A stretch of DNA of 23,124 bases. Origin: a virus. Positions within the stretch are counted from its first letter, which is position 1, and each line of letters begins with the position of its first letter. Positions 1 to 19,879 of the stretch are shown one piece after another. The notes beneath the pieces are model-generated. The model searched no databases. It was not told the DNA's origin and saw nothing but the letters and a program-made list of their open reading frames with translations. The translations under genes and the position numbers were made by a program. Where the stretch lies: IMG/VR virus record IMGVR_UViG_3300037891_000785, positions 1 through 23,124 of that record. One strand, given 5' to 3'.

Positions 1-63
1 GGAAAGAGTTGCCCCTTTGCCGGTTTTCAAGACCGGTGCATTCAACCACTCTGCCATCCTTCC
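1..63 (-). tRNA. tRNA-Ser (anticodon UGA), 3' part missing
   Basis: Read on the minus strand from 63, the sequence starts with an acceptor strand GGAAGGA, continues through a D-arm, and has an anticodon arm CCGGT-CTTGAAA-ACCGG (36 to 20) with anticodon TGA at 29-27. A long variable arm beginning AAAGGGGCAACTC follows, as in type II serine tRNAs. The anticodon arm and flanks closely match bacterial tRNA-Ser(UGA). The T-arm and 3' acceptor strand lie outside the window. It has its own sigma70-like promoter just upstream. UCA codons are common in such AT-rich phage genes, so codon supplementation is the likely role (inference). Confidence 0.93.
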
Positions 64-641: not shown

Positions 642-1205
642 CTATAATGTTGGTACCAACTCAATTAACGTTGGCATCTTTATTTTTTCCAACACTTCTT
701 TATTAAATATTGTACAACCAGTAGTAACATTCTGCAACCAGTCTTTGGAAGCTCTACTATCAGCTGAATCTGAAATGTACTTATAACATTTAAAGTCAAC
801 ATTGTGTTTTTTACAAATTTTTGCTATAGCATAGGCTTCCATGTCTACTATATCGCAATCAATTTTTGGCTTTGAAGTTGCAAAAGTATCTCCACTAGCA
901 CAAACAATACCTGGATTGCCAATCATAATATCTTTTTCATATGGAGTTTGACCTAATTTAAAATTAAGAGGTGTTGCATCCATATCTCTATCAACAAATC
1001 CTGTAACTTCAACTAATCCTGAAATATTTTTGTTTACTGCACCTGCTGTTCCATAATTAATTATTAGTTCAGGCTTTGAATCATTTATAATTTTTTCTGT
1101 TTCCGATGCGGCATTTATCTTACCTACTCCAGTAAAATGAATTACTGTTCCATACAGTCCTTCAACTTCCTCAGGTATTGCACATAGTACTACTAATTTT
1201 TCCAT
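642..1205 (-). CDS. MTA/SAH nucleosidase-like (nucleoside phosphorylase superfamily)
   Basis: At 187 aa it is shorter than bacterial MTAN enzymes (about 230 aa) but retains the family hallmarks. These are a start of the type VVLCAIPEEVE with the acidic residue E12, an NYGTAGAV nucleotide/phosphate loop near residues 50-57, VDMEAYAIA (E123, matching the ribose-binding Glu) and ISDSAD (D146, matching the catalytic Asp). Family knowledge: these enzymes cleave adenine from 5'-methylthioadenosine or S-adenosylhomocysteine. MTA is the by-product of spermidine synthesis, and speD lies about 1.5 kb upstream in the same gene run, so clearing MTA is a plausible job (inference). The ATG directly follows the stop codon of the deformylase gene, so the two are likely translationally coupled. 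Substrate among the superfamily is not certain. Confidence 0.85.
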   Translation of the reverse strand: MEKLVVLCAIPEEVEGLYGTVIHFTGVGKINAASETEKIINDSKPELIINYGTAGAVNKNISGLVEVTGFVDRDMDATPLNFKLGQTPYEKDIMIGNPGIVCASGDTFATSKPKIDCDIVDMEAYAIAKICKKHNVDFKCYKYISDSADSRASKDWLQNVTTGCTIFNKEVLEKIKMPTLIELVPTL

Positions 1206-1733
1206 TTATCTGCCTAACTTTTTTCTAATTTTTTGTGACTTTTTCTTTGCCATATCCCATTTTAGTTTTGAAGCTCTTTTATTAAATGTTATACCATCTA
1301 AATGATCACATTCATGTTGGAAACATTTACTTTCTATATTGTCTAACTCTGCTGTTTGTTCTTTGCCTGTAATATCTTGCCATTTGACAGTAACTACTTT
1401 TGGTCTTTTTACTTCAACCCAGATATCTGGAAAACTTAAACAGCCTTCAATGTCATTGACTTGTTCATTACTGCTTTCAACTACTTCAGGATTCCATACT
1501 ACTATAGGATTTTTAAATGTTTTAAAACTTTGCCCATTACCTATTGCAAAAAATCTTTTTGTTATTCCTATTTGGTTTGCCGCTAATCCTATACCTGATG
1601 CTGTTTCCATTAAACGGATCATTTCAACTTGAAACTTTTCTAAATCATTATTATAATGAACTAGTCCTTTGTTAAAATCAAACTCATCACTTTTAACGTG
1701 TAACGTTTCGTAAGGGTTAGTATATATTTCCAT
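1206..1733 (-). CDS. def: peptide deformylase
   Basis: Removes the formyl group from the N-terminal Met of nascent proteins. All three family motifs are present: motif 1 GIGLAANQIG (residues 47-56), motif 2 EGCLSFP (97-103, C99 as metal ligand), and motif 3 QHECDHLDG (139-147) with the HExxH metal site and catalytic Glu. The 175-aa length is normal for a bacterial enzyme, longer than many cut-down phage versions. The ATG is preceded by AAGAG. The next gene begins immediately after its stop. Deformylases occur in marine phage genomes and are usually explained as support for high-rate phage translation. With the tRNA and tmRNA it makes this end of the window translation-centred. Confidence 0.97.
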   Translation of the reverse strand: MEIYTNPYETLHVKSDEFDFNKGLVHYNNDLEKFQVEMIRLMETASGIGLAANQIGITKRFFAIGNGQSFKTFKNPIVVWNPEVVESSNEQVNDIEGCLSFPDIWVEVKRPKVVTVKWQDITGKEQTAELDNIESKCFQHECDHLDGITFNKRASKLKWDMAKKKSQKIRKKLGR

Positions 1734-1776
1734 GTAGGTCTCTTATTTTTAAACTGTTTGTTTATTTTTATTTAAT

Positions 1777-2175
1777 TCAATTACTTTTTTTTTGTATAGT
1801 ATCAATTAGATTCCCTAATCCATTTCTTCGTTGAGCTGTTAAAAGTTCTTTAATACGCAAATCATTAAATTCATCTCTGTGTATTGCTACTGCTTCTGTA
1901 ACATCTCCGCCAGTAAAACAGTCACACACTATTCTAGTAATACCTTTTGTAATCATTGAATCTGAATCGTACTGAACGTTAACTTTATCATTTTCAACTA
2001 TAGGATTAATCCATATACGAGATATACAACCAAAGACTAACTTATCATCAGTTCTTTGTTCACGTGATAATGATGTTTTATAATCTGCAAGTTCAACTAG
2101 ATATTCTAATCGTTCCATGCCTTCAAGTAATTCTAATTTAGAACCCCAGAGTTTAATTTTTTCTTTAATTGTCAT
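1777..2175 (-). CDS. sufE: SufE-like Fe-S cluster assembly protein
   Basis: At 132 aa it is a full-length stand-alone SufE-fold protein. The sulfur-accepting cysteine sits in VFGCISRIWI (C50), matching the VxGCxSxVW motif around Cys51 of E. coli SufE. The C-terminal LLTAQRRNGLGNLIDTI matches the family's RxxGLxxM helix. SufE takes persulfide sulfur from the cysteine desulfurase SufS and passes it to the SufBCD scaffold. No sufS or scaffold gene is in the window, so it would have to work with host partners (inference). Its ATG overlaps the stop of the preceding 60-aa gene (ATGA), indicating translational coupling within a speD - small ORF - sufE unit. Confidence 0.9.
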   Translation of the reverse strand: MTIKEKIKLWGSKLELLEGMERLEYLVELADYKTSLSREQRTDDKLVFGCISRIWINPIVENDKVNVQYDSDSMITKGITRIVCDCFTGGDVTEAVAIHRDEFNDLRIKELLTAQRRNGLGNLIDTIQKKSN

Positions 2176-2354
2176 TTTCCAGCTTGTTGTGTAAAGATTG
2201 TTTTTGATAGTGGCATTATTCTTGTTGGTCTTTTAATAATTAATTTTTTAGGTCTTCTAGCTATTCGTCTAACTGGTTTTTTACAAGTCAATCGTTTAGG
2301 TCTAAGAATCTTATCCATAAATCTGCTTGTTTCTACTATATCTGTTATTTTCAT
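2172..2354 (-). CDS. small basic hypothetical protein, 60 aa
   Basis: Very rich in Arg and Lys (for example residues 18-45, with repeated RP and KP pairs) and without any acidic patch, so a nucleic-acid-binding or virion-core role is possible, but no family is recognised. It is linked by ATGA overlaps to both neighbours: its start overlaps the speD stop and its stop overlaps the sufE start. That pattern argues it is real and translated. There is no Shine-Dalgarno, consistent with coupling. A T4-late-like TATAAATA lies 36 nt upstream, inside speD. Confidence 0.75.
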   Translation of the reverse strand: MKITDIVETSRFMDKILRPKRLTCKKPVRRIARRPKKLIIKRPTRIMPLSKTIFTQQAGK

Positions 2355-2722
2355 AATTGTATTTCAGTTAAACCTTTTTCTCTATCTAAATATTTATATT
2401 CAATTTTAACTGGATCAAACTGTTTAAGCTCATCAAATATAAGTTGTTCATTAAATGGTCCGCAAGTGTATACATCTAACTGAAACAACCCTGGATCTGA
2501 TTCATCCCAACAATGTAATGCTATGTGTGATGTTTCAATAACTACTAATCCTGTTAAACCTCTGTTGCCTTCTTCATTTACATAAGCAGTTATAGGTCCT
2601 TGACATATAATCATGCCAATTTTTTCTACTAATTGAGTTAACCATTTATGAGCCCACTGTGGACTTGTTGGAGTCTTTTTTGTTTCCGCTCTAATTATCA
2701 AATGTTTGTGTACTACTGCCAT
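2351..2722 (-). CDS. speD: S-adenosylmethionine decarboxylase (prokaryotic type)
   Basis: Makes decarboxylated SAM, the aminopropyl donor for spermidine. At 123 aa it matches the small bacterial/archaeal self-processing enzyme. The core GLTGLVVIETSHIALHCWDE (residues 55-74) aligns with the canonical pyruvoyl site: S65 would become the pyruvoyl group, H70 matches the processing His five residues later, and the LDVYTCG segment carries C87, the catalytic Cys. Odd point: the residue before the pyruvoyl Ser is Thr rather than the usual Glu. It starts at ATG 2722 with no Shine-Dalgarno; a GTTAAATA element ends five nt before the ATG. It is overlapped by the next gene. An MTA-nucleosidase-like gene downstream fits the same pathway. 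Confidence 0.93.
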   Translation of the reverse strand: MAVVHKHLIIRAETKKTPTSPQWAHKWLTQLVEKIGMIICQGPITAYVNEEGNRGLTGLVVIETSHIALHCWDESDPGLFQLDVYTCGPFNEQLIFDELKQFDPVKIEYKYLDREKGLTEIQL

Positions 2723-2727
2723 AGCTG

Positions 2728-2735
2728 TATTTAAC
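2728..2735 (-). promoter_or_regulatory. T4-late-like element next to the speD start
   Basis: GTTAAATA is followed by CAGCT and then the speD ATG. The element resembles the T4 late promoter TATAAATA. At that distance transcription would start at or next to the ATG. Role inferred from pattern only. Confidence 0.35.
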
Positions 2736-3013
2736 TATAATATAAACAACTGTATCAATGCTATTGCATTCATTATTGTAAACCAACTACATAGCACAAT
2801 TACAAAGGCCGCTTTACGTATTACTGCACTAACTACACCTAGGATAGAACCAATAAAATATAATGGTATAAAAATTCTAGTTGCAGGATCTAAAACTGTA
2901 AACGTTAGTATGGCACTAGCTGAAATTAAAAATATAGCTTCAACCATTTCACACCAAAATGCCAATGGTGAAAATGTGTAACTATCTTTTATAAATTTTT
3001 TAATTTTGTTCAT
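2735..3013 (-). CDS. small integral membrane protein, 92 aa
   Basis: Three hydrophobic stretches are visible after a short basic N-terminus (MNKIKKFIK), around residues 22-38, 42-62 and 66-90, so a three-pass inner-membrane protein is likely. No family is recognised; a holin is possible in principle but nothing specific supports it. I chose ATG 3013 because GGAG (3023-3020) lies 6 nt upstream; the in-frame TTG at 3025 would bury that ribosome site. It follows directly after the tmRNA gene, so the tmRNA promoter may also serve this gene. Confidence 0.8.
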   Translation of the reverse strand: MNKIKKFIKDSYTFSPLAFWCEMVEAIFLISASAILTFTVLDPATRIFIPLYFIGSILGVVSAVIRKAAFVIVLCSWFTIMNAIALIQLFIL

Positions 3014-3029
3014 TTGTATCTCCAATATA

Positions 3030-3279
3030 AGTGCAACTATTCTGTTGCCAGGTCAGTTGCCAACCCCGTTAGCCTAACTAATTAGGCCGCAAGTGCTAGA
3101 TTTTCATCTGCATTTGTAAATGTGTTCGCATTAACCGAGCTTACATCCGGACAACTCCATTGCTCTTTTAATTACTGTCGATCCTATTTCACCCCCATAA
3201 AACTGTTTAACTTAATGGTGGAGGTGGTCGGTACTGCCCCGACGTCCATATAATCTATTTCAACAACTTCAACATTGTA
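3030..3279 (-). ncRNA. ssrA: circularly permuted (two-piece) tmRNA
   Basis: In minus-strand order the acceptor piece comes first. It has a T-arm GTCGG-GGCAGTA-CCGAC (3243-3227), then acceptor strand CACCTCC, discriminator A and encoded CCA (3226-3216). After about 19 nt of intervening sequence the coding piece begins at 3196 with GGGGGTGAAATAGGATCGACAG, the typical tmRNA 5' region. GGGGGUG pairs with CACCUCC over 7 bp and places a G3-U70 wobble, the alanyl-tRNA synthetase identity element. A short CCGG/UCGG hairpin (3150-3135) sits where PK1 is expected, then a tag frame ending at TAA 3084-3082. A closing hairpin GCAAC-AGAATA-GTTGC lies at 3048-3033. This order is the permuted form known from alphaproteobacteria. 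Outer ends are approximate, and I did not resolve helix P2. Confidence 0.93.
3082..3129 (-). other. tmRNA proteolysis-tag reading frame
   Basis: Reading from a likely resume codon GCG (3129-3127) gives ANTFTNADENLALAA followed by TAA. The C-terminal LAA-type ending is the known ClpX recognition element of tmRNA tags, and the ADENLALAA end resembles the E. coli tag. The resume codon is inferred; the in-frame GCA at 3111 would give a shorter 9-residue tag. Confidence 0.8.
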
Positions 3280-3284
3280 AATAT

Positions 3285-3312
3285 ATTATACACGGAATTT
3301 AGAAAAATACAA
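3285..3312 (-). promoter_or_regulatory. sigma70-like promoter of the tmRNA
   Basis: TTGTAT (3312-3307), 16 nt, TATAAT (3290-3285) on the minus strand predicts a start near 3278, just upstream of the acceptor piece. It lies in the short gap after the stop codon of the 311-aa gene. Confidence 0.7.
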
Positions 3313-13717: not shown

Positions 13718-13736
13718 AAAAAGAGCAAGTCTTTTT
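13718..13736 (-). terminator. possible weak A/U hairpin terminator
   Basis: AAAAAGA-CTTGC-TCTTTTT on the minus strand, directly after the basic-protein gene: a 7-bp perfect stem whose 3' arm is itself U-rich. It contains only one G-C pair, so termination would be inefficient, but the position between two units fits. Confidence 0.3.
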
Positions 13737-14023
13737 TATCTTCTTCTTAATGATTTATTCATAGCGGCTACTCGTCTAGACGCTGGATTGAATCTCTTTG
13801 TGAATTTAATTTTTCGTGTTAATCTTGCACCCATTCTACTTCTTAATTTTTTCATTTGAAAACGTTTTTTAATATCCAATGGTGCTGAACATACTGATGG
13901 GTTAGATACTATTCTGCCTTTTTTTCTACCAAAAGTACAACGATATTTTCGTACTACATTTCTTCCACTTTTGCCATAAACAATTTTAGCTTCTTGTACT
14001 GGAAAAATATCACTAATAAGCAT
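13736..14023 (-). CDS. small basic protein, paralogue of its upstream neighbour, 95 aa
   Basis: Highly basic (Arg/Lys throughout). It shares with the preceding gene product the start MLI-x-(D/E)IF, then YRCTFGRKKGRIVSNPSVC with two cysteines 16 residues apart (C29, C45), then APLDIKKR, FTKRFNP and a C-terminal NK-Arg run. Two Cys plus basic surroundings suggest a small nucleic-acid-binding fold, but no function is established. AGGA lies upstream of the ATG, which overlaps the previous stop by one base. A packaging or DNA-coating role is conjecture. Confidence 0.8.
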   Translation of the reverse strand: MLISDIFPVQEAKIVYGKSGRNVVRKYRCTFGRKKGRIVSNPSVCSAPLDIKKRFQMKKLRSRMGARLTRKIKFTKRFNPASRRVAAMNKSLRRR

Positions 14024-14337
14024 TATCTTTTTCCTAACTTTATAGGTGCAGTTCTTCTTCTTGACTTAACTTGTTTGTTTAAGCCTTTAACAATCTTTGA
14101 TATAGGATTATATTTTTTTGTAAATGATGCTCTTTTACCTTGAATAGTTGATTTTCCTGCTCTTGTTGTTTTCATTGTTTGACGTTTCTTAATGTTAATA
14201 GGTGCTGTACACGTTTGAGGATTAGCTACTATTCTTCCTTTACGTGGGCCTGCCGCACAACGGAATCTCTTTTTAACTTGGTTTTTGTACTTGCCAAATA
14301 TTTGAGGTGTTCCTTCGAATATTTCATTGATTAACAT
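14023..14337 (-). CDS. small basic protein, first of a tandem pair, 104 aa
   Basis: Same family as the next gene downstream: MLINEIF start, FRCAAGPRKGRIVANPQTC with C27 and C43 spaced by 16, APINIKKR, FTKKYNPISK and LNKQVKSRRR. It has an extra basic tail of about 10 residues. Almost no acidic residues after position 8. AGGAT is 5 nt before the ATG. I recall proteins with this RCxxGxRKGRIV pattern from T4-like marine phages without known role. The pair looks like a tandem gene duplication that has diverged strongly at sequence level. Confidence 0.8.
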   Translation of the reverse strand: MLINEIFEGTPQIFGKYKNQVKKRFRCAAGPRKGRIVANPQTCTAPINIKKRQTMKTTRAGKSTIQGKRASFTKKYNPISKIVKGLNKQVKSRRRTAPIKLGKR

Positions 14338-19270: not shown

Positions 19271-19879
19271 CTAATATGTTGATACAATTTTATCTGCAAT
19301 ACCATATTTGACTGCTTCTTTGGCACTTAACCATCTGTCTTCAGGTGGTAATAAAATGTCTCTAACTTTCTTTTCACTTAATCCTGTACACTTTTTATAG
19401 TGGTCAATCATTCTTGCTGTGCTTAATTCAAATTCACGTACTCTAGCAAATAATTCATGTTCTTTACCTACACTACCCCAACTGTACTGATGTGATAGTA
19501 TTGACGTGTTAGGTGTTATTACACGTTTACCTTTTTGACCGCTCATGAATGTTAATAAACCACAACTTGCAATCATACCAAGTCCTACTGTTTTTACAGG
19601 TATAGCTGATCCTTTCATTGTGTCAATTAGTGCAAATGCTGAATGTACTTGTCCACCCGGTGAGTTAATCACCAATGTTAATTCTTTTGGTCTTTGTGAG
19701 TTTGGTAATAAATTTTTTTCAATGATACAGTTGATTACTGGTTTTGTAGTATTACTATCAAATCCATCACTAAAATACATTATACCAGATTCATACATTA
19801 ACATCCCTGGTTGTAAAGGCGGTTGCTGTGATTGTTTACTTTGTTTTTTTGATGTTTCTTTTGGTTCTTTAATTTCCAT
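19271..19879 (-). CDS. clpP: ClpP-like serine peptidase
   Basis: At 202 aa, full ClpP length. Catalytic triad: S105 in GMIASCGLLTF, H130 in SILSHQYSWG, D181 in PEDRWLSAKEA. The GGQVHSAFAL segment after NSPGG (72-76) forms the oxyanion region, and a typical KYGIADKIV ends the fold. The N-terminal 25 residues are Lys/Gln/Pro-rich and replace the usual axial loop start, so ClpX docking might differ. Possible roles: degrading host or phage proteins, including those tagged by the phage tmRNA, or head maturation; none is shown by the sequence. AGGAAAG lies upstream of the ATG. Confidence 0.94.
   Translation of the reverse strand: MEIKEPKETSKKQSKQSQQPPLQPGMLMYESGIMYFSDGFDSNTTKPVINCIIEKNLLPNSQRPKELTLVINSPGGQVHSAFALIDTMKGSAIPVKTVGLGMIASCGLLTFMSGQKGKRVITPNTSILSHQYSWGSVGKEHELFARVREFELSTARMIDHYKKCTGLSEKKVRDILLPPEDRWLSAKEAVKYGIADKIVSTY

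Follow-up and report, generated by a model that had tools for sequence, protein, structure and literature searches.

A circularly permuted alpha-type tmRNA gene in a marine T4-like phage and its relation to bacterial ssrA

Introduction

Phage-borne tmRNA genes of the circularly permuted type have already been described. Buchholz et al. 2022 (PMC9004378) reported a two-piece, SAR11-like ssrA in the myophage Melnitz; in their screening of 18,146 phage genomes, 402 carried a tmRNA (133 unique structures), and 53 phage tmRNAs were of the two-piece type, 50 of them marine or aquatic. In addition, huge phages with tmRNA and SmpB have been described (PMC7162821), and an SsrA is annotated in GenBank for the Pelagibacter phage Mosig EXVC030M (MT647606, 111467-111805). 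As for bacteria, an earlier reading of the present locus from its sequence only called permuted tmRNAs typical of alphaproteobacteria and some cyanobacteria, which stands with the correction that they are found in betaproteobacteria too (PMC11915505).

The locus described here lies in the window, that is, the whole analysed stretch of 23,124 nucleotides (positions 1 to 23,124 of IMG/VR record IMGVR_UViG_3300037891_000785, called G000 below), a 23-kb uncultivated metagenomic virus record. As in Melnitz, which is a Methylophilales phage, and related marine myophages, the tmRNA of the window is permuted and two-piece and belongs to a marine T4-like myophage; compared by description, the tmRNA of Melnitz is likewise closer to alphaproteobacterial ones and is the first element of an operon, as the window gene appears to be. 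However, a glutamine riboswitch is located at ssrA in Melnitz (PMC9004378), whereas no riboswitch was found in the window by the Rfam scan, and the neighbouring genes differ. The SsrA of Mosig is also permuted, with the CACCTCC acceptor strand and G3-U70, and its tag (GEDNFALAA) ends in FALAA, much like the LALAA of the window; the NrdB proteins of the two phages are 64% identical. The differences are in the locus, which in Mosig adjoins a late-transcription accessory gene, in the T-loop (TGCAACT in Mosig, GGCAGTA in the window) and in the rest of the tag. With the alphaproteobacterial two-piece ssrA (RF01849), the window gene shares the gene order, the GGCRGTA T-loop, the TCGAC D-region, the CCTGGCAACAGAA signature of the 3′ pseudoknot, the encoded CCA and the LAA tag end, but its T-stem is GTCGG/CCGAC instead of the near-invariant CCGGG/CCCGG, and its identity to the sampled true bacterial genes is at most about 60%. 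As permuted tmRNAs of the alpha type have been published from phages before (Melnitz, Mosig; PMC9004378), the window tmRNA is not new in kind.

Identity and layout of the gene

A complete circularly permuted (two-piece) alpha-type tmRNA gene is located at window positions 3030-3278 on the minus strand. In cmscan, the match to RF01849 (alpha_tmRNA), the model that the sequence-only reading had named as a check, scored 142.8 bits against a gathering threshold of 50 (E 1.7e-39) and covered the entire model 1-355, while RF04321 (tmRNA_permuted) gave a full-length match of 115.3 bits against 47; the class was assigned above these gathering thresholds. Moreover, ARAGORN independently called a tmRNA* with the tag ADENLALAA, and the T-arm/acceptor motif has a single copy in the window, and none of 100 dinucleotide shuffles contained it. 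The folding energy of the entire RNA (z -1.7) is not significant and is uninformative. The parts of the gene are as follows:

3216-3278, minus strand: acceptor piece, with the P2 5′ strands, T-arm, acceptor 3′ strand, A73 and CCA
3243-3227, minus strand: T-arm GTCGG-GGCAGTA-CCGAC, with GGAC just before it
3226-3220, minus strand: acceptor 3′ strand CACCTCC, followed by the discriminator A73 at 3219
3218-3216, minus strand: encoded CCA, the end of the acceptor piece
3197-3215, minus strand: intervening spacer of 19 nt, expected to be removed
3030-3196, minus strand: coding piece, with the acceptor 5′ strand, D-region, P2 3′ strands, tag, stop hairpin and pseudoknot
3196-3190, minus strand: acceptor 5′ strand GGGGGTG, the start of the coding piece
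Coding piece between GGGGGTG and the tag, minus strand: D-region GGATCGACAG
3151-3175, minus strand: P2 3′ strands, forming inter-piece helices with the acceptor piece
3175-3170 with 3255-3250, minus strand: P2 helix
3164-3159 with 3267-3262, minus strand: P2 helix
3155-3151 with 3278-3274, minus strand: P2 helix
3082-3111, minus strand: tag frame GCA GAT GAA AAT CTA GCA CTT GCG GCC TAA (ADENLALAA*)
3072-3087, minus strand: hairpin GCCTAA-TTAG-TTAGGC, holding the tag stop codon
3033-3066, minus strand: 3′ H-type pseudoknot with the CCTGGCAACAGAA signature
3066-3062 with 3054-3050, minus strand: putative pseudoknot stem 1, GGGTT/GACCT
3060-3055 with 3038-3033, minus strand: pseudoknot stem 2, GCAACT/AGTTGC

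On the minus strand, the acceptor piece opens from 3278 with ACAAT and further P2 strands and stands ahead of the coding piece, in which AAATAGGATCGACAG comes directly after GGGGGTG and before the P2 3′ strands. This is the order that the sequence-only reading had described, and its 7-bp acceptor stem is confirmed as well, in that all 7 pairs form between the two pieces, G3-U70 included; the positions 3216 and 3196, which it had taken as the processed ends, agree with the predicted ones. G3-U70 is to be expected in any tmRNA, because it is the general alanine identity pair. The alpha-type T-loop and the 3′ pseudoknot signature are both present, and the locus is a real tmRNA gene that, as far as can be judged from its letters, looks functional.

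The tag

Two in-frame starts are present, and both end in ADENLALAA*. In the reference of 102 alphaproteobacterial genes, the resume codon is mostly located 63-67 nt past TCGAC. The short tag has an offset of 65 and a context score of 9.9, and the longer in-frame tag of 15 aa, ANTFTNADENLALAA, has an offset of 47 and a context score of -2.1; because its offset and context fit better, the short tag is preferred and the longer one was rejected. The preferred frame has a GCN resume codon and the hydrophobic AA end.

This frame also bears on the idea that the RNA is a decoy or takeover RNA, whose main effect would be to compete for SmpB, AlaRS or ribosomes against the tmRNA of the host and not to help in rescue. 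Such a role has an example in mycobacteriophage DS6A, whose tag-less tmRNA is cited in PMC11915505 as inhibiting the host tmRNA, and the T-stems of phages have diverged from their bacterial counterparts. However, a pure decoy could do without the tag frame, the stop codon and the LAA end, all of which are intact here and the same in the related contig L122, so that this role is very unlikely.

Unusually long tags with a common motif are found in the viral clade nearest to the window (L042, L055, L080, L096, L126, L135 and L136), for example ANTKALGFADLTVGMSELRLAA (22 aa) and ANKRALGFADLTLLLPSKTELRLAA (25 aa); the codon changes in the shared motif are mostly synonymous, though the numbers are small. 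The 23-aa tags of L053 and L065 are unrelated to it.

Conservation in close phage relatives

Three further phage contigs have the same RNA together with the upstream neighbour ORF at 92-94% identity. L124 is identical to the window across 249 nt. In L122, the T-arm, acceptor-stem and tag bases are all unchanged, the spacer differs in 9 of 19 columns between invariant flanking stems, and 3 inter-piece P2 pairs are changed on both sides and still paired, with 0 pairs broken; 50 of 500 shuffles reach the observed P2 values, which makes this a weak control with only two distinct close sequences. In pseudoknot stem 2 of L122, GGGGC/GCCCC replaces GCAACT/AGTTGC with pairing kept, as read from the segments, the script's best L122 helix being another 5-bp register. 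The stop-codon hairpin is invariant in L122 and so shows no covariation. The compensatory changes point to selection on the RNA, and the whole pattern, that is, paired changes, a fixed tag, T-arm and acceptor stem, and a free spacer, argues that the tmRNA is a maintained two-piece RNA and neither debris, nor a decaying gene, nor an attachment-site remnant.

Temperate phages commonly use ssrA as an att site, which PMC9004378 also discusses. The locus might on this ground be a host ssrA remnant without a function of its own, derived from an att site or from imprecise excision. However, the gene is complete, neither a 3′ fragment nor a partial gene beside an integrase, and the three lineage records (G000, G002 and G003), which may be fragments, gave no match to an integrase (PF00589); the compensatory changes show selection, and a close bacterial source is absent among the sampled genomes. 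A remnant is strongly disfavoured by the complete gene and the lack of an integrase match, and is considered extremely unlikely.

Relation to other viral and bacterial tmRNAs

The acceptor/T-arm pattern matches at least 120 IMG/VR viral contigs. In 51 distinct T-arm/acceptor versions, chosen without conditioning on pairing, 149 of the 153 free pairs of the viral T-stems form, compared with 72.7 on average and 91 at most after shuffling. In the parsed sets, the T-stem CCGGG/CCCGG occurs in 10 of 96 viral sequences and in 99 of 109 bacterial ones (Fisher p about 3e-34), a p value that is inflated by relatedness, with a bacterial set that over-samples one family and a parsing that demanded paired stems; when the remaining bacterial T-stem matches were parsed more loosely, they mostly agreed with the parsed set. 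The pairs of the T-stem are thought to tune EF-Tu binding.

In a FastTree tree of 199 sequences, the window is placed in a clade of 12 sequences, all of them viral (support 0.96), and the next group consists of 69 sequences, all viral but one (L188), with modest support at deeper nodes. The bacterial sample comprised 142 genomes of a single class and 32 of a single family, and its best true match to the window tmRNA has about 60% identity. The sequence-only reading had the phage take the RNA from an alphaproteobacterial host or co-evolve it; neither this identity nor the virus-only clade supports recent capture from a particular host. A DNA search of named phages, with the window tmRNA as the query, gave only short, weak matches. 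By these sequence comparisons, the phage tmRNAs group apart from the sampled bacterial ones, and their T-stems co-vary where the bacterial ones are nearly invariant, which is mildly new.

Two candidate bacterial relatives were rejected. L188, a "bacterial" match of 68% identity, is a MAG contig with phage-type NrdA/NrdB alongside and reads as phage inside a MAG; L126, with an exact acceptor/T-arm match, is likewise a phage-like contig inside a MAG. Phage-like contigs with their own tmRNAs were seen in two MAGs of one alphaproteobacterial family (L126/L136 and L135 in G001, L188/L275 in G155), and tmRNA surveys of MAGs can therefore mistake phage genes for those of the host.

Genomic setting

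The window encodes NrdA, NrdB, ThyX, a DnaB-type helicase and a primase, and its NrdB is 63-64% identical to the NrdBs of Mosig, HTVC008M and cyanophages; the stretch belongs to a marine bacterial virus of a distant T4-like lineage. The upstream neighbour of the tmRNA is an ORF of unknown function; downstream, further genes follow in a run on the same strand. The surrounding elements are:

3285-3312, minus strand: promoter-like block, TTGTAT (3312-3307), 16 nt, TATAAT (3290-3285)
642-3025, minus strand: downstream gene run, probably co-transcribed with the tmRNA
19271-19879, minus strand: ClpP-like peptidase of the same phage

The promoter-like block stands just upstream of the gene, in keeping with the dedicated promoter proposed earlier: it predicts a start near 3278, where the pairing of the acceptor piece begins, and 31 of 33 bases around it are conserved in L122. 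Its -35 element is weak, and the site is absent from the consensus-scan list. The run 642-3025 consists of a small membrane-like ORF, S-adenosylmethionine decarboxylase, a 60-aa ORF, SufE, peptide deformylase and a nucleoside phosphorylase-superfamily protein.

As the record is an uncultivated metagenomic one of 23 kb, the contig might be chimeric and hold a piece of host chromosome, the tmRNA then being simply bacterial. However, phage genes (NrdA/NrdB, ThyX, helicase and primase) flank the tmRNA on both sides, independent phage contigs have the same arrangement, and the sequence groups with viral tmRNAs only; host contamination was rejected on this basis and is barely conceivable.

Several other features of the lineage were observed. 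The S-adenosylmethionine decarboxylase and the nucleoside phosphorylase-superfamily protein stand in one gene run (window 642-2722), which suggests polyamine synthesis with by-product salvage. SufE is located at window 1777-2175, and SufB, named from sequence alone, is carried by the phage-like contig L126 (730-2184). Two adjoining small basic proteins (window 13736-14337; 95 and 104 aa) resemble a tandem duplication whose copies have diverged. A partial tRNA at window 1-63 (minus strand) is cut by the contig end, and a complete tRNA-Ser(TGA) is found at its place in the relative G002. At L280:8529-11062 in G003 (IMGVR_UViG_3300017758_003447), a contig of 58 kb from the same phage lineage, an AdoCbl-II (vitamin B12) riboswitch of 93 bits immediately precedes the genes for a DUF6580 membrane protein and a TonB-dependent receptor of 621 aa; the arrangement resembles a B12-regulated operon for outer-membrane uptake, carried by the phage, and may be more unusual than the tmRNA.

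Discussion

Judged by sequence, structure and conservation, the locus very probably encodes a functional tmRNA (ssrA) of the phage, circularly permuted and of the alpha type; in its phage origin, permutation and type it agrees with the sequence-only reading. Its most likely role in infected cells is ordinary trans-translation, for which the host would supply AlaRS, SmpB, EF-Tu, RNase P and Clp proteases. A single precursor would be transcribed from the promoter-like block; host RNase P would cut before GGGGGTG (3196), and 3′ processing would expose the encoded CCA (3216), which would remove the 19-nt spacer and leave two RNAs joined by the acceptor stem and P2. Host AlaRS would charge the tmRNA via G3-U70, and host SmpB and EF-Tu would carry it to ribosomes stalled on broken mRNA, where translation would resume at GCA (3111), append (A)ADENLALAA and stop at TAA, the tagged fragment going to Clp proteolysis. 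For the phage, the benefit would be that ribosomes are kept available in a T4-like infection while host mRNA is degraded. Since SmpB was not found in G000, G002 or G003, which are incomplete records of the same lineage, the phage tmRNA would depend on the host, and the need for host processing enzymes stated by the sequence-only reading is a reasonable one.

Proteolysis might also be run by the phage itself, the tmRNA tagging host or phage proteins mainly so that a phage ClpP recycles amino acids or remodels the cell. The ClpP-like peptidase is encoded in all three lineage records, the residues expected for its Ser-His-Asp triad align with those of solved ClpPs, and peptide deformylase is present as well; host-protein tagging was proposed for Melnitz (PMC9004378). 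However, the ClpP-like gene is 16 kb from the tmRNA with nothing linking them directly, the PHROG matches of its product are mostly head maturation proteases, and Mosig carries a tmRNA while its genome gives no ClpP match, unlike the window lineage. That is to say, the ClpP-like protein is a possible partner in tag proteolysis and may equally be a head protease, and proteolysis run by the phage is unlikely. Doubtful, too, is the broader idea that a long-separate marine-phage lineage of permuted tmRNAs, with compensated T-stem drift, would form together with its own ClpP and deformylase a phage-run quality-control set distinct from that of the host.

With ordinary trans-translation as the preferred reading, the window adds a structurally complete and well-supported tmRNA example from a distant T4-like lineage, and shows that permuted tmRNAs carried by phages are maintained there by selection on their structure. 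The contrast between the variable, co-varying T-stems of phages and the nearly fixed ones of bacteria is testable with EF-Tu, SmpB and AlaRS.
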